A model generated the notes under the pieces. It did not search any database. It saw only the letters and a program-made list of their open reading frames with translations, and was not told the origin of the DNA. 19,858 nt of DNA from Geobacter sp. (GTDB lineage Bacteria > Desulfobacterota > Desulfuromonadia > Geobacterales > Geobacteraceae): NCBI GenBank assembly GCA_003857395.1, contig RPRC01000137.1:1-19858 (forward strand), read 5' to 3'. Within the stretch, counting starts at the first letter, position 1. The number at the start of each line of letters is the position of its first letter. This document shows, in pieces, positions 1-18,628 of this stretch. The position numbers were made by a program, and so were the translations under genes.

Positions 1-126
1 GAGAGGATCCGCGTCAATCAGCAGGACACGATCGCCTCCTTCGGCAAGTGCAACAGCTAGGTTTAAGGCTACCGTAGTTTTTCCGGTACCACCTTTTGAA
101 CTAACAATGGAAACAATATTCGCCAT
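1..126 (-). CDS. ParA/MinD-family ATPase, N-terminal fragment (runs off the window)
   Basis: The first 42 residues of a ParA/MinD-type P-loop ATPase are visible, from ATG at 124-126 to the window edge. They contain the deviant Walker A motif KGGTGKTT (residues 11-18), including the signature first Lys, and the start of the Walker A' region (VLLIDADP, about residues 34-41). This superfamily dimerises on ATP and positions plasmids, chromosome origins, division proteins or chemosensory arrays on the nucleoid or membrane. Which subfamily this is cannot be decided from the fragment. A GGGGAG ribosome site lies about 7 bases before the ATG. The gene follows the DUF4388/Roadblock-like gene by 19 bp, so it is probably the distal cistron of that operon. 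The cluster has no ParB visible, and ParB could lie outside the window. Confident as a ParA-type ATPase; its role is inferred only from neighbours. Confidence 0.9.
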
Positions 127-145
127 TTCGTCTCCCCAATCGGGC

Positions 146-1057
146 TTACTGCATTTCCGACAGTTTCCGAACGTCTGGTATCAATTCTGACATCTTGTGC
201 TTCACAACTCCCGGTTTTGCTTTCTCATCACAGGCAACCACAAGAAAATAACTGCTTCCGTTGTCGACCATGTGCAGAAAAAGAGAACCCTCCTGACACT
301 GGACAAATCCGAACAGGACCTTGCCCATTTTCAATTCATTAGAGCTTAAAGAAGAAGCTCCGAGCCAGACAAGGAGCGACGGGAGTAGCTGCCTTGTATC
401 GACAGACACTCCATCTGCCACATGGTACGCAAGCTGATTCCCCTCTGTGTCCGAAACCACTGAGTAGAGGTAGCCGGGCAGTACGGCAAGGGCTTGCAGA
501 AAATCCCTTTCATCCGGCTGCGACTCCGCTTTTTTCTCCCAGGCATCTGAATCATCTGCTACGTTCACCGGAACCGCTGAGAGAACATCTTCCTCGAGTT
601 CCGGATAGACCTCACTCAGAAGAAATATCAGACTGGTATCGACTACCATCTCGCCGCCTCGGGCCTGAAGTGTTATCCCTGAAATATTCATCATGGAAGA
701 GATAGCAGCTTTCACATGAGCCTTAAGGCATTCTCGCAAGGTAGCGTGAGAAATAAGGCCGGTTTCTTCCAGCAGCACACCAAGTTTTTTTGACTTGCCT
801 AGGGAGCGGTATTTCAGTACGACCTCATCGAGCCTATCTTTCGGAACCATGCCGATTCGCTCGAGAAAAGAAGCGAAGTTTTCCGTCTGGGTATTGCTGA
901 CTGCCCAGGCAACATGACCATCACGAAGGACGACCACACCAACCTGTTGCAGATCTTTCATGGCATTTAGAATGCCGCTCCACTTGATTTCAACGGCGTT
1001 TCTCAGAGCCACACTAAAGGAGTGCCCATCAATTATGTCGACTACGTGATCTCCCAC
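146..1057 (-). CDS. DUF4388-like N-terminal plus Roadblock/LC7-like C-terminal protein
   Basis: About 303 residues if translation starts at GTG 1055-1057. The N-terminal half (about residues 25-140) resembles the DUF4388/PATAN region: a segment reading [14 protein letters not shown] is followed by a helical stretch, [20 protein letters not shown], like the LGxLLxxxGLIxxxxLxxAL repeat common in such proteins. The last 110 residues ([20 protein letters not shown] to the end) look like a Roadblock/LC7 fold, a small alpha/beta dimerisation domain that in bacteria often regulates small GTPases. No catalytic residues or membrane segments are seen. It lies between the V4R-like pair and the ParA ATPase in an apparent operon and may be the adaptor to that ATPase, which is inference. 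A TTG at 1061-1063 is in frame, but GGAG at 1064-1067 abuts it and is correctly spaced for the GTG. Family assignment is moderate, more certain for the C-terminal half than the N-terminal half. Confidence 0.75.
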
Positions 1058-1063
1058 TGCCAA

Positions 1064-1067
1064 CTCC
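1064..1067 (-). promoter_or_regulatory. Ribosome binding site that favours the GTG start at 1055-1057
   Basis: GGAG on the minus strand is six bases before GTG 1055-1057 and directly touches the alternative TTG at 1061-1063. Spacing favours GTG. An in-frame TAG at 1091-1093 limits any further extension. Confidence 0.55.
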
Positions 1068-1113
1068 GCAAAATCCGTTACAGGTGACTGCTAAAATTAC
1101 TTCGTGACTTCCG

Positions 1114-1695
1114 TTATTTCTTTGTTACGAGAAACTCGCCATAGGGATCGCCCACTTCAAGTCCTTTTGTTTGCACGCACACATACGTGTCCATCCCGTC
1201 CGGGTAAGGTTCGGCATATGCAAGGTCAAAGAAAGCCTGACTCAGACCTCGGAGCATAAAACCGCTCATGCCGCCGCTCCCGCTTTCTGAATCGTAATAG
1301 TCAAAAGCACGAATGATCATTTTCTCGCCATCTTTCAGTTGCACTATTCCTGACTTTGCCCAACCCCACGCAGTAAAAGCTGCATAGGCGCCCCGCAGGA
1401 TATCTTTTTCTCCTTCAGTAACCATTGGCAGAACCACTTCACTGAAAATTTCCGACGTGATGATGCCACAGCCGGTGTGGTATCCGCATTCATAGGCTGC
1501 TCTCACAAAGCCGGCTTCTATTTCTGTCTTTTTTTCCGGAGGAGCCGCCGTTAAGAGTCTCTCTGTAAAAGTATTTAAAAGGGATACGGGAAGAAGGTTT
1601 ACCAACACCTCGTATTCAGGAATCAAACCGTTCTCATCAGCCTGGACGGTAATCTTGGCAAGTGACTTTACAACGGTATCACGCATTACTGTCAT
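1114..1695 (-). CDS. V4R-like domain protein (first of two paralogues)
   Basis: 193 residues, ATG start with an AGGAGGAG ribosome site 7 bases upstream. The C-terminal half has the layout of a V4R (4-vinyl-reductase) small-molecule-binding domain: a helical segment, a central strand pair, and a final strand ending VGDPYGEFLV (residues 181-190), matching the V4R ending GDxxCxF. Both usual Cys positions are Gly here (178 and 186), so the metal or hydrocarbon site proposed for V4R may be lost. Other Cys (70, 76, 173) and His73 (CGYHTGC) lie elsewhere. It is similar in length and layout to the next upstream gene, with which it forms a tandem divergent pair; that gene's TGA ends 18 bp before this ATG. 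Soluble; no signal peptide or membrane helix. V4R domains usually act as ligand sensors, so a sensory role is an inference. Distant homology, moderate confidence. Confidence 0.6.
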   Translation of the reverse strand: MTVMRDTVVKSLAKITVQADENGLIPEYEVLVNLLPVSLLNTFTERLLTAAPPEKKTEIEAGFVRAAYECGYHTGCGIITSEIFSEVVLPMVTEGEKDILRGAYAAFTAWGWAKSGIVQLKDGEKMIIRAFDYYDSESGSGGMSGFMLRGLSQAFFDLAYAEPYPDGMDTYVCVQTKGLEVGDPYGEFLVTKK

Positions 1696-1713
1696 GAAAA
1701 AACTCCTCCTCTC

Positions 1714-2229
1714 TCAGGATGCCTTAACAATAAACTTCCCTTCTGAATCCCCTACCGCTATGCTGGCAGCCTCGGTAACCACGTAACTTTTTGAGGGCTT
1801 TTTGAACGCCGCGGCAAACATGGCAGCCACATAGCCACAAGTAAAATGGTTGATCGGTTTGCTATGCACGCCCCACTTTTTCACCCAGCCCTCATCCAGA
1901 TGGGACCTGACCAAGCGTACCTCTCCACCGTTTTCATCCCCGGTGATAATCATCTTTCCCAAGCCGAAAGCAGAATAATACTCCCTGCCGACATTGCACC
2001 TGTCCTGTGCGGAAGTAATCCCGTTTTTTTCAATATAATCCTCAAAGACAGCTCGCATGGTGTCTTCCACTGAATCCCGGAGGATCTCCGCGGCATTGAT
2101 GCCATCCTGATCTTCCACCAGCTTTGTCAACAAGGCGAGATAGTGGTGGGAATGCATAACAACTGGTTGACCGTTCAGATAGTTACGATGCGTTTCATTA
2201 TCGTGACTGTAGTCTAATCTCAACGCCAT
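1714..2229 (-). CDS. V4R-like domain protein (second paralogue, His-rich N-terminus)
   Basis: 171 residues, ATG start, preceded by AGGAGGAG that overlaps the region just after the upstream gene's TAG (12-bp gap), which suggests translational coupling. The C-terminus ends VGDSEGKFIV (residues 159-168), the same final strand as its neighbour and like V4R GDxxCxF, with the two Cys positions again changed (Ser156, Gly164). The N-terminus carries MHSHHY (residues 25-30) plus His9 and His14, a dense His group that could bind a metal or cofactor; this is speculation from composition. Conserved features shared with the 193-residue neighbour include a helix with A-x-G near residues 87-90 and a final beta hairpin. 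Soluble, no signal peptide. It is encoded between the DUF4388-Roadblock protein and its paralogue, so the two V4R-like proteins are probably made together and might pair. Function unknown. Confidence 0.6.
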   Translation of the reverse strand: MALRLDYSHDNETHRNYLNGQPVVMHSHHYLALLTKLVEDQDGINAAEILRDSVEDTMRAVFEDYIEKNGITSAQDRCNVGREYYSAFGLGKMIITGDENGGEVRLVRSHLDEGWVKKWGVHSKPINHFTCGYVAAMFAAAFKKPSKSYVVTEAASIAVGDSEGKFIVKAS

Positions 2230-2241
2230 TGAACACTCCTC

Positions 2242-3018
2242 CTAGAATGATTGTCCAAGCTCTTCAAAGAGCTTCTTGGTTTTATGCCTGATAATTCCAA
2301 GCTTGGAAGCATCCGGGGTAATGATCGCCGCAACAGCGTCGCCAACCGGCCTGCACATGATTACCGCTCTTCCGTACTCAATGAACATGTCCTGAAACTT
2401 GTTGACATTCAACTCACTTCCCATTTCCTCAATTCCGTTGATAGAGTGGGCAAGTGATGCGCCTAATTCGTCAATATTCACCCGGGCACTGCTCCCTGCG
2501 GATTCGATAACGAAACCGTCTCGTCCAACAACAACGACAGCATCCACCCCGGGAACCTCCAGCAAATCATTCATGACCTCTGTAGAACCCCTCTCGGTCT
2601 GTTGCATTTCATAGCTCCTTTCTTCTGAACCGGTCTTTAGCGTAGCAGCATTGTCTCTTGCCTGTTTATCCAACAGTACAGCCGCTTCCATAATGGCGTG
2701 TTGTACAGATAATCCAATATTTGTCTTTTGTGCAGCCACCCCGGGAACAAAATGGAAGGTGCCCTGATCCCAGGAAAGTAGATCGGCGAAGCCCTCCAAC
2801 CCGGTTATGTTTTTTGATTCAGCGGAAACCAGCTCACCGCCCACAAAATGGATCTTCCCTTCCTCACCCCCAGGATGGCGCACCAGTCTGATCATTCCGC
2901 TTTTCGCGCTTGACGAAAGGAATTGCAGCAAGTCGGTAATATTTGTCAGCGCAAGATTTCCTTTCAGCCCACTGTCCTTCGTAAGCAACTCGATGCTTTC
3001 TTCAATTTGAACAGGCAT
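2242..3018 (-). CDS. DUF4388 plus Roadblock/LC7 domain protein
   Basis: 258 residues. Residues about 15-115 are a DUF4388 (PATAN-type) domain: GNLALTNITDLLQFLSSSAKSGMIRL, then GKIHFVGGELVSAES, then FADLLSWDQGTFHFVPG, which is the family's typical order. A polar linker (about 118-143) leads to a Roadblock/LC7 domain (about 145-245) with MNDLLEVPGVDAVVVVGRDGFVIES and a hydrophobic strand AVIMCRPVGDAVAAIITP. Roadblock domains dimerise and can regulate MglA-type GTPases; DUF4388 is found in bacterial signalling proteins. ATG start with GAGGAT 6 bases upstream. It is the first gene after a 217-bp gap and heads the run to the ParA ATPase. A second, more divergent protein of similar layout lies at 146-1057, so heterodimers are possible (inference). 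The domain calls are secure; the partner is not identified. Confidence 0.88.
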   Translation of the reverse strand: MPVQIEESIELLTKDSGLKGNLALTNITDLLQFLSSSAKSGMIRLVRHPGGEEGKIHFVGGELVSAESKNITGLEGFADLLSWDQGTFHFVPGVAAQKTNIGLSVQHAIMEAAVLLDKQARDNAATLKTGSEERSYEMQQTERGSTEVMNDLLEVPGVDAVVVVGRDGFVIESAGSSARVNIDELGASLAHSINGIEEMGSELNVNKFQDMFIEYGRAVIMCRPVGDAVAAIITPDASKLGIIRHKTKKLFEELGQSF

Positions 3019-3235
3019 TGCAGTATCCTCAAAGGAAACGAACGGAAATACTTACAACAAAACTACCCTTCCCATATCATCGAAAAATCGAATCATGAGA
3101 AAAAGCAGCACACTTGGGAGAGACCTGAAACCAAATCGTTGTGTAATGCAGGCCGGATACAGGGAACGCAAATCAGTAGCGACCCTTTCCAGTCCGCCCG
3201 GAATCTATGAAGTTCCAGCATGAAACTTCAAAAAA
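3019..3235. other. Intergenic gap between the FIST gene and the DUF4388-Roadblock gene
   Basis: 217 bases without a credible gene. On the minus strand it follows the FIST stop with a run of T and then a small inverted repeat (TGAAGTT/AACTTCA, 3208-3214 and 3224-3230). No U-tract follows the hairpin in the direction of transcription, so it is not a standard terminator. No convincing sigma70 or sigma54 promoter was seen. Whether the FIST pair and the downstream five genes are one transcript is therefore open. Confidence 0.4.
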
Positions 3236-4342
3236 TTATTTAAACACAAGCATCGTCGCAGTCTGATTGATGTGCCCGATGTATTCTTCACCGTAGGAGC
3301 TGAAACCAATTGTCGGAACATCCGAAAACAGTTCACCGTAAGCCTGGTCAAGACCATTTTGTCTGAGTTCCAGCGTCCTGAGGATGCAGTTGAAATTAAT
3401 CAGACCGGAAATATTTCCAAGCTCCGATTTTGCCTGCTGGATTGCAGTCCGGGTATCTCCGATTACGTCAGTACCTTCCAGGAGCGACAGTTCCATCCCC
3501 TCCATGACACTGCAATAAAACAGCATGCTGCTTCCCTTGATCTGCTGAGGACTGCGGACATACGGTTCATCCTCGATGAACAGGCCTACGGGGTTATGCA
3601 TAAAATGCTTGGGAGCATCTTCAATGGTCGTCCCGAGAGCCTCAGCATAGGCGACTGCGGCAGGCTTTCCATTGAATTCGACAACCTCTCGCTGCTCTTC
3701 ATTTGCCTTCGTGACTTCGAGGCTTTTTCCAAGGTCACGAAAACTCTGTGTCTTGATGAAGCTGAACTCGACACCTGGTTTGAGCATTGCTAAAACAGCC
3801 GCATTGGTAAAGTTTTTACCGTTTGCGTAGACATTCGTTGAGGCGAATTTAAGATCATCTCCCGCCGAGCCACCGATGATGGTCACATTGGTAAGGTCCC
3901 CAATGGTCTCCATCAAGCCTTCCTCAGCCCCGCTCAAGCCATCGATAAGAATGATCCCCACATACTTCTCCGGGTCCATTTCCGCCACAGGCTCCTTGAA
4001 ATAGGTTTCCAAGGATTCAAAAGCCTTTTTCACGGAATTTTCATCCTTGAGGTTTTCAATAACCTCGATCTTTACGTCTTTTACCGCCTGACCATTGAAT
4101 GCCATGGCCACAATGGAATTTTCCAGCATCTTCCCGGATACAATCTCTCCCGCCGTTGAACAACCGAATACCTGCGCCATGGGGAAAGCGTTCTGCATCA
4201 GGCTGCTGACTTTTTCCGGCATATATTTCGTTGAGGCGAAGAAAAGAACCAATTCTGTGTCGAACATCTCGAATTGCTTGGCAATTTCATCGACACTCTG
4301 CTCAGCGGTTTCATTAATGGAAAAAGCGGTTTTAATATTCAT
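3236..4342 (-). CDS. FIST N- and C-domain signal transduction protein
   Basis: 368 residues containing a complete FIST_N and FIST_C pair. FIST_N signatures are GCSTAGEI (60-67), GIILIDGLSGAEE (129-141) and IIGGSAGDDLKF (155-166). FIST_C signatures are NPVGLFIEDEPYVRSP (250-265), GLINFNCILRTLEL (313-326) and PTIGFSSYGEEYIGHINQTA (343-362). FIST domains are predicted small-ligand sensors, possibly for amino acids, and are often fused to kinases, cyclases or chemoreceptors. Here the protein stands alone with no output domain, so it must signal through partners. Soluble, no membrane helix. ATG start, with GGAGG about 7 bases upstream. It follows a 63-residue protein by 33 bp, clearly in one transcript, and precedes the DUF4388-Roadblock run. 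Assignment secure; ligand unknown. Confidence 0.93.
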   Translation of the reverse strand: MNIKTAFSINETAEQSVDEIAKQFEMFDTELVLFFASTKYMPEKVSSLMQNAFPMAQVFGCSTAGEIVSGKMLENSIVAMAFNGQAVKDVKIEVIENLKDENSVKKAFESLETYFKEPVAEMDPEKYVGIILIDGLSGAEEGLMETIGDLTNVTIIGGSAGDDLKFASTNVYANGKNFTNAAVLAMLKPGVEFSFIKTQSFRDLGKSLEVTKANEEQREVVEFNGKPAAVAYAEALGTTIEDAPKHFMHNPVGLFIEDEPYVRSPQQIKGSSMLFYCSVMEGMELSLLEGTDVIGDTRTAIQQAKSELGNISGLINFNCILRTLELRQNGLDQAYGELFSDVPTIGFSSYGEEYIGHINQTATMLVFK

Positions 4343-4375
4343 TCTTACCCTCCTACCAATAGGCGTATTCTTGTT

Positions 4376-4567
4376 CTATTTGAGGTCTGCGATCATCTTC
4401 TCGAGCTTGCCAAGAACAACAGGGTCATCTTCGGACTGAAGTGTATACTTGTTCGGATTGATACCCTTGAGAATCAGTTTCGTTTTGATGACACGTTCGA
4501 GCATCGGATTGTCCTTTGCTCTCTGGGTAATGATGGAGTCTATCATCTGCCTGATTTTTCCTGCCAT
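4376..4567 (-). CDS. Small helical hypothetical protein, first gene of the FIST transcript
   Basis: 63 residues; I do not recognise a family. It is predicted mostly helical and basic at the N-terminus (MAGKIRQMIDSIITQRAKDN), with a second segment around VIKTKLILKGINPNKY (residues 26-41) and a C-terminal helix GKLEKMIADLK. No Cys, signal peptide or membrane helix. Evidence for a real gene: a very strong GAGGAGGT ribosome site 6 to 7 bases before the ATG, a short 33-bp gap to the FIST gene, and a sigma70-like promoter about 170 bases upstream. Its position suggests a FIST partner or an anti/co-regulator, but nothing in the sequence proves this. Conservation of the pair in other genomes would settle whether they work together. 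Confidence 0.75.
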   Translation of the reverse strand: MAGKIRQMIDSIITQRAKDNPMLERVIKTKLILKGINPNKYTLQSEDDPVVLGKLEKMIADLK

Positions 4568-4703
4568 TCAAATACCTCCTCATTGATTATTACACATCAT
4601 GCAATATAACCTGGGATACACAAGTCGGCGGATACGTCGCAAGTCATAGCCTGCCACCCAACCGAATCAGAAAGCATAAATACACTTTTAAATAATCAAT
4701 TGT

Positions 4704-4719
4704 TATAGTTAAAACTATA
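4704..4719. repeat. Palindrome TATAGTT-AA-AACTATA
   Basis: Exact 7-base arms separated by AA, just downstream of the predicted transcription start. Operator-like, but AT-rich DNA gives such palindromes by chance more often. Confidence 0.4.
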
Positions 4720-4728
4720 TTTAGAAAT

Positions 4729-4756
4729 TTTAAATGTGCAGCTTTATACATTTAAA
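4729..4756. repeat. Inverted repeat over the -10 element
   Basis: TTTAAATGT (4729-4737) and ACATTTAAA (4748-4756) are exact 9-base arms around a 10-base spacer. The repeat covers the candidate -10 and start site, a typical place for a repressor operator. It could also fold as a weak hairpin, but AT-only arms make that less likely. Confidence 0.5.
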
Positions 4757-4772
4757 CCCCAGTATATGTCAA
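4743..4772 (-). promoter_or_regulatory. Candidate sigma70 promoter of the 63-residue protein/FIST transcript
   Basis: On the minus strand TTGACA (4767-4772) is followed after 18 bases by TATAAA (4743-4748), a perfect -35 and a 5/6 -10. Transcription would start near 4736, giving a leader of about 170 bases to the ATG at 4567. The -10 lies inside the inverted repeat 4729-4756, which suggests repressor control. Confidence 0.6.
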
Positions 4773-4790
4773 CCTTATTATGACGTATAC

Positions 4791-4803
4791 ATAACACTGT
4801 TAT
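4791..4803. repeat. Palindrome ATAACA-C-TGTTAT
   Basis: Exact 6-base arms around one base, roughly 20 bases upstream of the candidate -35. This is a usual activator position. No known regulator site was recognised. Confidence 0.4.
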
Positions 4804-5106
4804 ATTATTTTTTCTTTCCCCCTTTAATTCCTGCAAAACAACCAGCTGCGCCCTGACCAGCACAATGACTCGCGCTTAAGGTGAACACATTTAACAAAAC
4901 TAACCTAATCACCAAGGGGGATGAGCAAAAAAATCTGAGAGTTTCAAAGCAGTGCTTAATTCCAATAGAGTAATGAACGAAAATTTACAGCAATTAGAAG
5001 GGAATATGAGACGAGAATAAATTTATTGAACTGGCGAGGACTGAAACCATGCGTTACGCAAAAGACGGTTGATTCTTTTCTTCAAAAGGAAAACCAGTAC
5101 CTGCCG

Positions 5107-5613
5107 CTACCCGCCACTTTTTGCCGTCAGAATTTTCTTTTCTGCCCAGTGCCGCACACCGCCTTCACGCTTTTTCTCAAAGCGCATGACAGGGACACTG
5201 AGTCCACAGCTATTTTCAACAGCCAAAACAGAAAGTCTGAACACCTGACGGACAATTTCCGGTTCTCCGGCAGAAAAGCTCTTCACAATCGAGGTAAATT
5301 CAGGGTCGTCTTTTCCGACAACCTCTCCGGAACAGAAAATCCTGAGAACCCGGGCATCGTCGTCAAAGGAACAAAACATGAGGGTCAGAAAACCACCGGC
5401 AGCAAGATCTCGTCCGGTTCGGTTGCTGCTCCCGGGGTAGTCAAGGAGAAGCAATGTCCTGGAGTCAAGAAAAAGCAGACAATCCTCACCCTTTGGAGCA
5501 AGGTTCACTTCTTCACCAGAGGCACTGGCAAGAAAAAAAACCTTCTGTCGTGAAGCAAACTTCACGTCCTTTTCCAGCAACTCCGAATACTGTTTACCCA
5601 TGCCTGCCCCCAT
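5107..5613 (-). CDS. Pyridoxamine 5'-phosphate oxidase-like FMN-binding protein
   Basis: 168 residues of the split-barrel flavin-binding family. Recognisable stretches are KVFFLASASGEEVNLAPKG (24-42), TLLLLDYPGSSNRTGRDL (53-70) and GGFLTLMFCSFDDDARVLRI (about 73-92), the order seen in the PNPOx-like proteins of about 180 residues whose substrate is usually unknown. They are not true PdxH enzymes: the PdxH substrate-binding C-terminus is absent. A role as FMN- or F420-dependent reductase or as a flavin-binding stress protein is possible. ATG 5611-5613 is used; a second in-frame ATG at 5599-5601 (MGKQY) is an equally possible start. A perfect TATAAT is found about 60 bases upstream. The 142-bp gap to the preceding gene suggests its own promoter. 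Family secure, reaction unknown. Confidence 0.85.
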   Translation of the reverse strand: MGAGMGKQYSELLEKDVKFASRQKVFFLASASGEEVNLAPKGEDCLLFLDSRTLLLLDYPGSSNRTGRDLAAGGFLTLMFCSFDDDARVLRIFCSGEVVGKDDPEFTSIVKSFSAGEPEIVRQVFRLSVLAVENSCGLSVPVMRFEKKREGGVRHWAEKKILTAKSGG

Positions 5614-5755: not shown

Positions 5756-6508
5756 TCACCAAATACCCATGCCTGACCTGACCACCTGCGAAGCAAGACG
5801 TGACGAATAGGTCACCCCCTTGCCGCTGCCATCCTGGCGAAGAACCAGAACTCCAAGATCGTCACCTTCCACCCAGCGACGCCCCTTTTTGTTCAAATCT
5901 TCAAAATCGATCACCTTGCAGTGAATTTTTCGCCCCTTGATATCTACGTCCTCGTCCCGTACCCAGTTATACCTTCTCGTAACGATCAGCAGATTTTCAA
6001 GGTCAAGAATTCTCAGAACCCTTTCCTTTTCGCCCGGGCCCATTGTTATCTCAGGACAGTCCAGGGTAGTGAAATCATATTTATTACGAGGGATGACCAA
6101 GGTACGCTTAGAACCGCCCTCATCGATGACGAACCGGAATGCGCCAGTCTCTACCTTTCCATCAACCAGAACAGCCTTATCATTTTCCTGCATTGTCCGT
6201 CGATAGTTATACGTTCCTTCCTCCCCAATCATCGCCTCCTCTTTTTTTTCAAGGCGATAAGAGAAAAAGAGGAGGTGAACATCGATGCTGGTAGACGATT
6301 CAAATCGAAAGGCCGTCTTCCTGTCCTGCACAACCGGACCGCACATGGTCTTCACCTGACCGACCTTCATACCATGGCTGAAAACCTCATAGCGAGATTC
6401 CCTCACTTCATTGGTCCTGGAGGGAGATGCCTGTGCCGCCAGACACAAAACAGAAACAAGCAGGATTTCGACAAAGGCAACTAACCCAAATTTCTTACAC
6501 CGGCGCAT
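5756..6508 (-). CDS. Exported protein, DUF3108/DUF6134-like
   Basis: 250 residues with a Sec signal peptide: basic MRRCKK, hydrophobic core about residues 8-24, and likely cleavage after AQA (25-27). The mature part starts with YEVFSHGMKVGQVKT, resembling the YxVxxxGxxxGxxxxxV opening of DUF3108/DUF6134 periplasmic proteins. It continues with many beta strands, including KEEAMIGEEGTYNYRRTMQ and RWVEGDDLGVLVLRQDG near the end. This suggests a beta-rich periplasmic fold; no catalytic motif is seen and no lipobox is present. The ATG at 6506-6508 has only a weak GGAAG-type ribosome site. It has its own candidate promoter and runs divergently from the dikinase gene. The export call is good; the family call is tentative. 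Confidence 0.7.
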   Translation of the reverse strand: MRRCKKFGLVAFVEILLVSVLCLAAQASPSRTNEVRESRYEVFSHGMKVGQVKTMCGPVVQDRKTAFRFESSTSIDVHLLFFSYRLEKKEEAMIGEEGTYNYRRTMQENDKAVLVDGKVETGAFRFVIDEGGSKRTLVIPRNKYDFTTLDCPEITMGPGEKERVLRILDLENLLIVTRRYNWVRDEDVDIKGRKIHCKVIDFEDLNKKGRRWVEGDDLGVLVLRQDGSGKGVTYSSRLASQVVRSGMGIW

Positions 6509-15481: not shown

Positions 15482-16195
15482 ATGAAAAAAATTGTCATGA
15501 TCGATCCATCGGAAACCTTTATAAAATTTGTCAGCCGCACACTCACGCGGATGGGATACGAGGTGTTCCATGCCTGCGATCTGGAATCAGGATTTTATGT
15601 CATTGAGGAGACAAAGCCTAGCCTGGTCCTCGCGGAGACCAATGTCCCGAACTGCAAAGGTGCGGAACTCTGCGAAATACTTTGTAGCGATCCCCGCACG
15701 TCAACAATTCCGATAGTAATCGTTACCACGGACGGCAATGAGCAGAGCTTGGAACAGGCAAAAAAAGCCGGCTGCTCCGACTACCTGACCAAGCCGCTGA
15801 CTGTCAGTGACATCCACCTGATGCTGCAGCGGAACCTGCCCTTTGTCGTCAAACGGCAGATGCTCCGACTGGATATTGAGGTCGATACGATAATCCGGAT
15901 AAAGGATCAGACGTTCGAGACCAGGACTAAAACCCTTAGTGAAGGCGGTCTGCTGGTTCAAATCGATCATCCTGCGATGCATACCGGCTCACAGGTAGAA
16001 ATATCTCTTCTCCTGTCGCCATCCGCCACCCCCCTTGAACTGACGGGAGAGGTCATCTATCTTCTGGGCCCCACAGCCACCTGTTCAGCACGAGATGTGG
16101 GGATCAAATTCTCAGACATCAGTAAAAAGTCTTCAGAACGCCTGAGAAACTTCATAGAACAAGCCGCCTCAGGGGAAGCGGGAAGTACTCTGTAG
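15482..16195 (+). CDS. Degenerate receiver (REC) plus PilZ domain protein
   Basis: 237 residues. The REC domain (1-118) has the receiver fold pattern with conserved Thr82/Thr83 (IVTTDG) and Lys104 (LTKP), but the phosphoacceptor Asp is Glu52 (LVLAETNVP) and the usual second acidic residue near the N-terminus is Pro9 (MIDPSE). Normal phosphorylation is therefore unlikely, and Glu may mimic the phosphorylated state. The PilZ domain (about 122-230) has RxxxR at Arg125/Arg129 and TLSEGG at 151-156, close to the c-di-GMP-binding D/NxSxxG, with Thr in the first position. It may bind c-di-GMP and regulate motility, exopolysaccharide or adhesion through contacts with other proteins. It is convergent with a hybrid kinase, with a shared terminator between them. 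Ribosome site GAGGG about 10 bases upstream. Domain assignment secure; c-di-GMP binding unproven. Confidence 0.9.
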   Translation: MKKIVMIDPSETFIKFVSRTLTRMGYEVFHACDLESGFYVIEETKPSLVLAETNVPNCKGAELCEILCSDPRTSTIPIVIVTTDGNEQSLEQAKKAGCSDYLTKPLTVSDIHLMLQRNLPFVVKRQMLRLDIEVDTIIRIKDQTFETRTKTLSEGGLLVQIDHPAMHTGSQVEISLLLSPSATPLELTGEVIYLLGPTATCSARDVGIKFSDISKKSSERLRNFIEQAASGEAGSTL

Positions 16196-16295: not shown

Positions 16296-18200
16296 TTATT
16301 CCAGGATCTCATGAATTTTCCGCACCAGATCCTTTGGCGAGACAGGCTTTCCGATAATTTCGACAGCACCGTCCGGCAAGCCATCGGCAGAATCCATTTT
16401 TTCCTGATATCCGCTCACAAAAAGAACCGGAATCTCCGGTCGTTCTGCATGAATTTTTTGAAACGCTTCCATGCCATTCATCCTCGGCATAACAATATCG
16501 AACAGCAACAGGTCAGGGGCAGTTTCCATCTCCCTGAATTTTTCCACGGCATCGACACCATCTACCGCCACATTTACGGTGAACCCGGATTTTTCGAGAA
16601 TTTCACGGGTTACCGATCTGACAAGATCATTGTCATCCGCCAGCAGAATGACCGGGTTTGCCATGCGTTCCGCCAAGTGGTGTTCTCTTGGACTTCGATC
16701 GATACCGTCCGCGGCACTGGGCAGATAGATGGTAAATACGCTTCCTGATCCCAGGGCCGACTTGGCAGTAATAAATCCACCCAACTGCTTCACCGTCCCA
16801 TAGGCGCTGGGGAGGCCGAGACCCGTCCCCTGGCCCACATCCTTTGTGGTAAAAAACGGCACAAAGATATTTCGCTGGGTCTCCGGGTCCATACCGACTC
16901 CGGTGTCGGAAACCGTCATGCATGCATAGCGACCCGCCTTACCAAAACCGTTTTCCTGGATGAAGTCGCTTCCCATTTCAGCAAAGGTTGTTTCAATAAT
17001 GAAATTACCACCATCGGGCATGGCGTCACGAGAGTTCGAGGTAAGGCTCAAGAGAATCTGCTCAATACAGTGACAATCAGCAACCACCTGCAACTCCGGC
17101 ACTTCGTGTCTGAGTTGCAGATGGACCTTATCACCCAATACAGGAGCCAGCTTTTCCGCAATCACATTAACACACTCCACCAGATTGATCCTGCGAACAG
17201 ATATCATCTGTTTACGGCTGAAAGCCAGGAGCGATTGCGTAAGCCCGGCGGCTTTCTCCGCTGCGCTAAGAATCCTCTCTTGGTATTGGTGTATCGGATC
17301 ACTCTCGTCGGTCCTCATTTTCGTTAAGGTGCAGAAACCGATGATCGCCGTGAGGATATTGTTGAAATCATGGGCAATGCCGCCCGCAAGTCGCCCCACC
17401 GCCTCAAGTTTCTGGGTCACACGGATTTTTTGCTCAAGCTTTACCTGGTCGGTAATGTCCTGCCCGACACCTATGTTTGTCCCATCCGAGAGCTGCACAT
17501 TTGCCCAACTGGTTTCGATAATTCGACCGTCCCGCACCCTGGTATGGAAGCGCTGCCAGACACCATCCGCCCGCATGATGAACTCGCTGACGGAACGCCG
17601 GTACTCGGGATCCGGATAAAACTCTTCAAGGAGATCCCGCTCTTGGAGATCCGCTAATGTCCAACCGGTCAAACGTTCCCAGGCAAGATTTCCGTAGGCA
17701 ACCTTCTGTTCAGGGTCAAAATAGACTATCATTACCGGGATTGTGTCGAGAATGGTCTGCAGCATTTCTTTCTGACGGATAACATGATGCTCGGCATTTA
17801 TTCTATCCGTTACATCAAGTAACATCCCCTGGTAAGCATAAGGCTTCGAATCCTTGTCCCGCAGAATCACGGTTCGGACGTCCAGCCAACGTACCCTGCC
17901 CTTTCCATCAACGATTCGGTACTCACCGGAAAATTCGTCAATCCCAGTTCGTGAATATCTCGCCACCTCTTCGCGGACACGCGACAAGTCATCAGGATGA
18001 AAGATATCGGTAAAACACAATCCGTTTGAAAGAAATTCCTCGGCACTGAATCCGAATTGCCCAATGTTGTCGGATACAAACTGGACAGACCACTTATCAT
18101 CGGCGTTCCAGCGAAAAGCAACTGCGGGACTCTGGTTGATAATGGTTTCAAGCTCTAGGAGCTTCTCTTCATGGGTTTTTCCATTGCTGGCATCATTCAT
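16296..18200 (-). CDS. PAS-PAS hybrid sensor histidine kinase with C-terminal receiver
   Basis: 634 residues from ATG 18198-18200. In order: PAS with PAC (about 20-136, ending [13 protein letters not shown]), a second PAS (about 145-255, [20 protein letters not shown] to [10 protein letters not shown]), HisKA (about 265-335, [15 protein letters not shown] with His277), HATPase (about 375-495, N-box [14 protein letters not shown]-boxes DTGVGM and GTGLGL), and a REC domain (about 517-630, LLADDND, Asp568 in FDIVMP, Lys in IGKPV). The first N-box Asn of NLxxN is Ser, but the essential second Asn is kept. Cytosolic; no membrane segment, so it senses an internal ligand or cofactor through the PAS domains. 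His277 would phosphorylate Asp568 or a separate response regulator. In-frame TTG 18309-18311 would add 37 residues unlike any PAS start. Nothing directly shows a link to the convergent REC-PilZ gene. Confidence 0.92.
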
Positions 18201-18628
18201 AATACGATCCGCTATACGAAGAGGTAAGAATCGACCCAAGCCAATGCCTGAGAGGTGGTTTTCTTCTTCACTGTCCCCTTCCTGGAGGTAAACCTTCGAA
18301 CAGTTGAACAATCAGGCAACGAGCAGGGCAGCAAGACATTGCGTATCTTCGCAATTGCCCCCCCCTCGAAAAGCAGCGGGGCGGAATTTGACAACACTGC
18401 TTACACAAGATTTCTATAAGCAAAGTATACTCGTCCGTTACAGCCTGGCAACAGGCTATTTTCGTATTAATAGCAGGATCTTCGCCATTATCAGGGTGCA
18501 CACAGGTTGATTGAAAACCAGGGGATTTTGACACAGAGTAAAAGTCGATAGAGGATTGGGCCGAATTGGATTCTGCTGTGCTCTTTAGAGGGATATCCGG
18601 CCTAAACGCCCTTCCTTCACAACAGAAA
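18201..18628. other. Leader/intergenic region upstream of the kinase
   Basis: About 430 bases with no credible gene on the plus strand. The minus-strand leader holds a run of G facing a C-rich block (about 18357-18385), which may fold. No riboswitch family was recognised. Confidence 0.4.
18424..18451 (-). promoter_or_regulatory. Candidate sigma70 promoter of the hybrid kinase
   Basis: TTGCCA (18446-18451) and TATACT (18424-18429) on the minus strand, 16 bases apart, each 5/6. The -35 lies in an inverted repeat, AGCCTG-GCAA-CAGGCT (18442-18457), a possible operator. Transcription would start near 18417, giving a leader of about 215 bases to ATG 18200 or 105 bases to TTG 18311. Confidence 0.55.

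Follow-up and report, generated by a model that had tools for sequence, protein, structure and literature searches.

What might a bacterial operon do that encodes a FIST protein, a pair of V4R-fold proteins, Roadblock-type proteins, and a ParA/MinD-type ATPase? Such an operon lies at positions 1–4567, minus strand, of a 19,858-nucleotide stretch of Geobacter sp. DNA (contig RPRC01000137.1), here called the window. Comparison with relatives confirms that the module is a genuine, tightly conserved sensory-type operon in the Desulfuromonadia. The V4R pair (V4R-A and V4R-B), rather than the whole operon, is the broadly conserved unit. The pair is likely a two-part small-molecule sensor, a role supported by genomic context and predicted fold.

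A Conserved Operon in the Desulfuromonadia

Open reading frames and a Pfam scan give seven genes, listed here from p63 to the window's left edge, with the basis of each assignment in parentheses.

4376..4567, minus strand: p63, a small protein (open reading frame and profile matches)
3236..4342, minus strand: FIST_N and FIST_C protein, 368 amino acids (Pfam, 148.7 and 80.1 bits)
2242..3018, minus strand: DUF4388 and Roadblock/LC7 protein, 258 amino acids (Pfam, 71.8 and 41.8 bits; alignment)
1714..2229, minus strand: V4R-A, 171 amino acids, V4R fold (structure model and alignment)
1114..1695, minus strand: V4R-B, 193 amino acids, V4R fold (structure model and alignment)
146..1063, minus strand: p305, divergent DUF4388-like N-terminal and Roadblock-like C-terminal part (profile comparison)
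1..126, minus strand: ParA/MinD-type ATPase, first 42 codons, truncated by the window edge (Walker A motif KGGTGKTT)

Gaps between genes from p63 to p305 are 33, 217, 12, 18, and 50 bases, and 19 bases separate p305 from ParA. In relatives with a full-length operon (e.g., L002), a 271-amino-acid ParA is followed by c7 (∼198 amino acids), beyond what would be the left edge of the window. The leftward extension that the earlier note proposed therefore comes from relatives and adds, next to ParA, a third Roadblock-like gene.

Profile searches covered 244 genomes of the Desulfuromonadia (the class of G001). V4R-B matched in 21 and strongly in 20, and all 20 strong loci have DUF4388-Roadblock, V4R-A, V4R-B, and at least a partial ParA in this order, which led us to reject chance neighborhood as an explanation. 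The 21st genome, G142 (E 1.4e-20), has a distant fused pair and lies outside the 20. A matching ParA (E ≤ 1e-60) was found in 19 genomes, every one among the 20 with a strong V4R-B, and is absent at this threshold from the other 224 genomes searched. The module genome G064 has no ParA at E ≤ 1e-60 and only a weak fragment (49 bits; L015 and L073). The frame at L015:12083 and in L073 is fragmentary, consistent with a broken gene or an assembly error. Within the 20 loci, p305 is visible in 11 and c7 in nine, c7 often being missing because the loci span just ∼3.6 kb. p63 matched in 29 of the 244 genomes, the 20 with the module and nine others; one match in a module genome (G243:C45:74560-74751) has a single TGA within the matched stretch.

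A second sample, the 64 loci of the genome_contigs set, was found by exact motif patterns and is biased accordingly; its neighbor counts take in profile matches on both strands up to 4.5 kb away, and some of the loci are short. FIST is present in 19 of these loci, together with DUF4388-Roadblock in 19, the p63 domain in 18, ParA in 17, c7 in 15, and p305 in 12. The FIST loci lacking ParA, L003 and L012, are contigs of 3.5 and 4.0 kb, and p305 was not found in some relatives. Two genes upstream of p63, encoding PNPOx (5107–5613) and p250 (5756–6508), were considered as operon members and rejected, being present in four and three of the 64 loci, respectively; p63 and c7 are for this reason taken as the ends of the operon.

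These results bear on much of what the earlier note had claimed from the window. The grouping of seven minus-strand genes stands on frames, Pfam matches, and folds. Their order is kept across the class, the homologues are not scattered, and the neighbors of ParA do not point to an unrelated function. As a unit, FIST, Roadblock, V4R, and ParA hold together within the Desulfuromonadia; the unit conserved more widely is the V4R pair, present in ∼15 labeled phyla (a number taken from record titles) mostly without FIST or ParA.

The V4R Pair

V4R-A and V4R-B are adjacent on the same strand in 62 of the 64 loci. They are fused in L057, and L012 stops right after V4R-A; some distances between the two are negative because the longest frames were used. 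Further fusions occur in L085 and L134. In L085 (1–2056, minus strand), a 76-amino-acid gene, the fused pair, and a FIST gene stand in series, a second linkage of V4R to FIST, and in L134 (3642–4910) the fused pair has 422 amino acids and a DUF4388 protein is encoded on the same stretch.

Each partner has its own invariant residues: H26, H28, and H29 (HxHH) of V4R-A in 35 of 35 aligned relatives, and E69, C70, Y72, H73, T74, and G75 (EC.YHTG) of V4R-B in 26 of 26. In a mixed MAFFT alignment that included the L057 fusion, rows of V4R-A and V4R-B did not settle on the matching halves of the fusion, and because the halves could not be separated in this way, the structure models are of single chains. 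For both, the best structural matches are the aromatic sensor domains of PoxR/MopR/DmpR. In MopR, a Cys/Glu cluster (C155, E178, C181, and C189) has a role in zinc binding. At these columns, V4R-A of the window has N127, E153, S156, and G164, so that only the Glu is retained, and V4R-B has no Cys at any of the three Cys positions and Q175 in place of the Glu.

The Pfam V4R model matches neither V4R protein of the window and, with E up to 0.1, only two of 35 V4R-A and none of 26 V4R-B relatives. Pfam gives a weak MetOD1 match for V4R-A, and excerpts of one paper relate MetOD1 to V4R and HNOB (PMC5847659). A correlation between V4R-A and V4R-B distances (r 0.91) was not used as evidence, as it is confounded by species relatedness.

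Adaptors, ATPase, and FIST

The 258-amino-acid protein exceeds both Pfam cut-offs (25 bits for DUF4388 and 23 for Robl_LC7). DUF4388 is a domain that we take to be the same as PATAN. p305 scores below the DUF4388 cut-off (18.9) and has no Robl_LC7 match in Pfam; its true start is perhaps two codons downstream, because many homologues have 303 amino acids. Pfam gave no match for two c7 proteins scanned, and the alignment between the C-terminal half of c7 and the Roadblock part of the DUF4388-Roadblock protein is weak. Relatives of the ATPase match AAA_31 (119 and 113 bits) and carry KGG[TAS]GKTT in 12 of 12 cases. No known ParB- or MinE-type partner was recognized among the conserved operon genes. 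Nor did Pfam find a partner histidine kinase among the operon genes of the window, as the earlier note had said, to which relatives add ParA and c7, the latter without a Pfam match.

p63 and FIST make up a two-gene cassette that also occurs away from the V4R pair. They are fused, with p63 at the FIST N terminus, in seven relatives (L007, L008, L009, L011, L014, L019, and L064) and, judged by frame length, in 11 of the 20 module genomes. Outside the module, p63 adjoins FIST in 15 of 15 stretches read (L118–L132); together, these stretches account for 17 of the 23 p63 matches there. Four of these cassettes are near a gene matching the methyl-accepting chemotaxis protein (MCP) profile (L121, L122, L124, and L132; L121 confirmed by Pfam) and three are beside CheW-CheA (L119, L125, and L126). 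Acetyl-CoA hydrolase genes accompany three others and aldehyde ferredoxin oxidoreductase two; in the remaining three, the neighbors are unscanned (L118) or have no Pfam match (L123 and L129).

Homology between p63 and c4, the small gene that precedes V4R-A in loci other than those of the window type, is not established and not claimed (hhalign E 4.4e-4, probability 34%, 25 columns). Under the filters used, p63 genes were absent from the matches listed for the c4 profile, and those listed for the p63 profile were all p63 or p63-FIST frames.

Partners of the V4R Pair in Other Phyla

In the 45 non-FIST loci of the genome_contigs set, matches near the V4R pair include c4 (37 loci), c5 (34), cysteine desulfurase (31), and MCP (14). 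c5 is a family of ∼95 amino acids with an invariant Cys, and one member scanned had no Pfam match; for one cysteine desulfurase scanned, the best match was TIGR01977 at 353 bits, under its cut-off of 377. Cysteine desulfurase and c5 stand beside the pair in most of the non-FIST loci L023–L063 (e.g., L028:6708-8146). c5 is present in one of 20 Desulfuromonadia module genomes and none of 10 others, and its rarity in the former suggests that it is not needed in the Desulfuromonadia.

Pfam scans of chosen neighbors identified signaling proteins: MCPs (L054, L055, L030, and L062), CheA (L054), a PAS-HisKA-receiver-Hpt hybrid kinase (L052), a receiver-HD protein (L053), SpoIIE with HAMP (L037 and L057), and a receiver-DUF4388 protein (L027). 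The last belongs to a cluster of six proteins, typed through this scanned member. The earlier note's sensory role fits these loci, since in other phyla the pair sits beside recognized signal-transduction genes. In L036 (7395–8825), the gene for an iron-only hydrogenase-like protein (Fe_hyd_lg_C, 112 bits) lies directly upstream of those for c4 and the V4R pair and adjoins one of the receiver-DUF4388 cluster.

These arrangements can be ordered by a concatenated tree, which comprises 90 loci and has its root on a second, distant V4R clade (class of G010). Loci with a missing or short V4R gene were excluded, and the FIST-set loci L003 and L012 are absent from the tree. All FIST/ParA tips, 22 in number, group in a single clade (support 1.0). 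Next come six loci with DUF4388/Roadblock relatives (L017, L018, L020, L021, L088, and L089), giving a group of 28 with support 1.0, within which L020 is nearest to the FIST/ParA clade (support 0.50). Seven loci then join (0.965), six of them with the receiver-DUF4388 cluster. At L017, DUF4388-Roadblock occurs together with the V4R pair, cysteine desulfurase, c5, and the beginning of a ParA. Read simply, this order suggests that DUF4388 was retained when Roadblock took the place of the receiver, with ParA and p63-FIST as later additions.

A Second, Distant V4R Clade

In the class of G010, V4R-B was found in 28 of 291 genomes: six strong, 21 distant, and one a fragment of 38 residues. The distant V4R-B occurs at 22 loci, one of them in a genome with a strong V4R-B as well. 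V4R-A adjoins it in 20 of the 22; V4R-A is split in L107 and was not found by profile in L101 and L102. The distant pair is followed by a long co-directional frame, and five such frames scanned contain PAS domains. In two of three regions fetched (L138 and L140), a PAS-HisKA_3-HATPase kinase and a LuxR-type response regulator follow the pair; in the third, L139, the kinase frame is broken by a masked stretch. Among 13 aligned V4R-A proteins of this clade, Cys is retained at the MopR cluster columns, which have lost it in the window clade, and HxHH is present in both. L138 (387–6363) and L140 thus combine a pair that keeps the Cys cluster, the kinase, the regulator, and a further gene, which in L138 has weak B12-binding and radical SAM matches.

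From Ligand to Position: a Proposal and Its Alternatives

Our preferred reading, plausible and held tentatively, is that a heterodimeric ligand sensor signals via PATAN-Roadblock adaptors to ParA, localizing motility or chemosensory machinery. Its computed footing consists of the gene set and how it is co-conserved, the folds of the V4R proteins, the V4R-A/V4R-B and p63-FIST fusions, and the transmitter genes found nearby elsewhere. The operon would be a sensory switch without a kinase. V4R-A and V4R-B may be obligate partners in a heterodimer. The dimer would bind a small ligand or cofactor through a V4R fold that lacks the MopR-type Cys cluster and retains the invariant HxHH (V4R-A) and EC.YHTG (V4R-B) motifs. 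p63-FIST could be a second sensor or an adaptor. The DUF4388 (PATAN)-Roadblock protein would receive the sensor state, perhaps together with that of FIST. Along with p305 and c7, it may make up a Roadblock assembly that adjusts the nucleotide cycle of the operon's ParA/MinD ATPase and hence where this ATPase is located. ParA is the likeliest effector because a matching ParA was found in module genomes only. Its cargo would most likely be chemosensory or type IV pilus machinery. Localization of this kind is the likeliest output because p63-FIST is often found by chemosensory genes and because, in excerpts of two papers, PATAN regulators make contact with the motor of the pilus (PMC10519157 and PMC7690835), in Synechocystis by binding of PATAN domains to PilB (PMC10519157). 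A bolder version, in which control passes from the V4R heterodimer by way of Roadblock adaptors to the positioning ATPase, with neither phosphorylation nor a small GTPase involved, and outputs were swapped stepwise (from receiver-PATAN to PATAN-Roadblock, and then to PATAN-Roadblock with ParA and p63-FIST), is possible but rather doubtful.

Several observations weigh against this proposal. Similarity to Roadblock is weak for both p305 (hhalign E 3e-4, probability 40%) and c7 (E 1.6e-4, probability 51%). The structure models are of single V4R chains, and the heterodimer is one that we infer. By eye, no C-terminal membrane helix is evident in relatives of ParA. Several scanned neighbors of the V4R pair in other phyla are non-signaling or unmatched, including a glycosyltransferase (L033), a pseudouridine synthase (L047), a Bmp-family substrate-binding protein (L052), a radical SAM protein (L021), the iron hydrogenase-like protein of L036, and a KAP ATPase (L062). 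CheA was found in 27 of 29 module genomes and not in G004 and G576, so that chemotaxis is not a universal output. Lastly, in both GTPase regions read of three fetched (G056 and G058), a 196-amino-acid MglA-like GTPase is encoded directly beside a 165-amino-acid Roadblock-like protein outside the operon, and the Roadblock proteins of the operon could act there.

The main rival builds on this last point. In it, the target of the Roadblock proteins would be an MglA-type GTPase encoded outside the operon, much as in MglA/MglB polarity control, and ParA would be a separate output or a factor that positions a scaffold; we consider it unlikely. The earlier note had seen no GTPase, which holds for the operon, where Pfam finds no Ras-like GTPase, and not for the genomes. 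Arf profile matches occur in 29 of 29 module genomes searched, a count that includes other GTPases, and a tally by eye gives a short-frame match (157–233 amino acids) in each of the 20 Desulfuromonadia module genomes. A family scan of the region in G058 returned Arf at 30 bits and Robl_LC7 at 51 bits, and such a short-frame GTPase beside a Roadblock-like protein is presumably MglA. Excerpts of published work place PATAN genes occasionally near MglA genes (PMC4316618) and mention PATAN proteins in Myxococcus (PMC11580455). Yet the GTPase lies outside the operon and already has a Roadblock-like neighbor of its own in both regions read. In contrast, 19 of 20 module genomes and, at the threshold used, none of 224 others have a matching ParA.

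Also improbable, in our judgment, is that a cytoplasmic chemosensory array uses the module as an accessory sensor and is positioned or segregated by ParA, with the Roadblock proteins as structural adaptors. There are precedents in ParC and PpfA, ParA-like proteins that position or segregate chemosensory arrays. The MCP matches in 14 of the 45 non-FIST loci and the seven of 15 outside p63-FIST cassettes near MCP-profile genes or CheW-CheA are consistent with such a link. However, neither MCP nor CheA was found in the operon in the Desulfuromonadia, CheA was not found in the two module genomes named above, and the other cassettes are by metabolic genes (five of 15) or by genes unscanned or unmatched in Pfam (three of 15).

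A further alternative, which we regard as quite improbable, is that the V4R pair is no receptor but an enzyme or cofactor carrier whose state is reported by the linked signaling genes. The frequency of cysteine desulfurase and c5 beside the pair, the invariant Cys and His in V4R-B, and a hydrolase-related activity suggested for MetOD1 in excerpts of PMC5847659 would suit this role. Against it, c5 seems dispensable in the Desulfuromonadia, and the nearest folds are ligand-binding sensor domains.

It is equally improbable that FIST is a NosP-type heme nitric oxide sensor that dominates the input, with the V4R pair as a cofactor-binding partner: the domain content is NosP-like, the FIST (NosP) domain in excerpts of two papers binds heme and controls a partner kinase in response to nitric oxide (PMC12570481 and PMC8738867), and L085 links FIST to a V4R pair a second time, but 45 of 64 V4R loci, some of them short, have no FIST within 4.5 kb, so that V4R seems to work without it, and H357 is the sole His conserved in at least 95% of 20 aligned FIST sequences.

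Other Features of the Window

A scan of 4300–5150 found two promoter-like sites against 2.2 expected and one terminator-like site against 0.6 expected, and Rfam returned nothing at gathering scores. Further along the window, 15482–16195 (plus strand) encodes a response regulator with a PilZ domain, and a frame on the strand opposite to it (16296–18311) clusters with PAS-type kinases.

Relation to Known Systems and Significance

The operon can be set beside several known systems, each with a difference. In PoxR/MopR/DmpR, V4R is a domain of a transcription activator, whereas here it forms a free-standing adjacent pair, in which the positions equivalent to the MopR Cys cluster are not Cys. As in NosP/NosK, a stand-alone FIST protein is encoded in a likely signaling operon; here, however, FIST is known from sequence, no kinase was found in the window operon, and a V4R pair, Roadblock, and ParA stand there instead. 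DUF4388 is a likely output domain, as in the PATAN response regulators of cyanobacterial phototaxis (given the equivalence assumed above), but the window protein has no receiver domain and joins DUF4388 to Roadblock/LC7. Roadblock/LC7 is presumed to control a P-loop NTPase, as in the MglA/MglB polarity switch, and this NTPase is of ParA/MinD type rather than a Ras-like GTPase. The deviant Walker A motif and the AAA_31 match are those of ParA/MinD positioning ATPases, here with Roadblock and sensor neighbors. In TRAPP, pairs of Bet3-fold proteins occur with longin subunits; here, the partners are Roadblock proteins instead of longin proteins, and no GTPase is seen in the operon.

The earlier note knew of no named system with this set, and none is described among the literature matches listed, from which subscription journals are mostly absent; nor, within the same coverage, does a paper join V4R with a FIST domain or DUF4388 with ParA. 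Fusions of PYP with V4R are reported in excerpts of PMC12826048. The module is an arrangement of known parts that is new, with a broad V4R core beyond the Desulfuromonadia.

The V4R pair is a candidate modular receptor, spread over its ∼15 labeled phyla and mostly missed by the Pfam V4R model. Its partners, from MCP, kinase, and phosphatase to receiver-DUF4388 and Roadblock with ParA, offer a natural series on how a sensor is rewired. In the Desulfuromonadia version, if the proposal is true, ligand sensing would feed straight into a positioning ATPase, and the bolder version of the proposal would amount to a new kind of bacterial signal output, leading from a ligand to a position in the cell.

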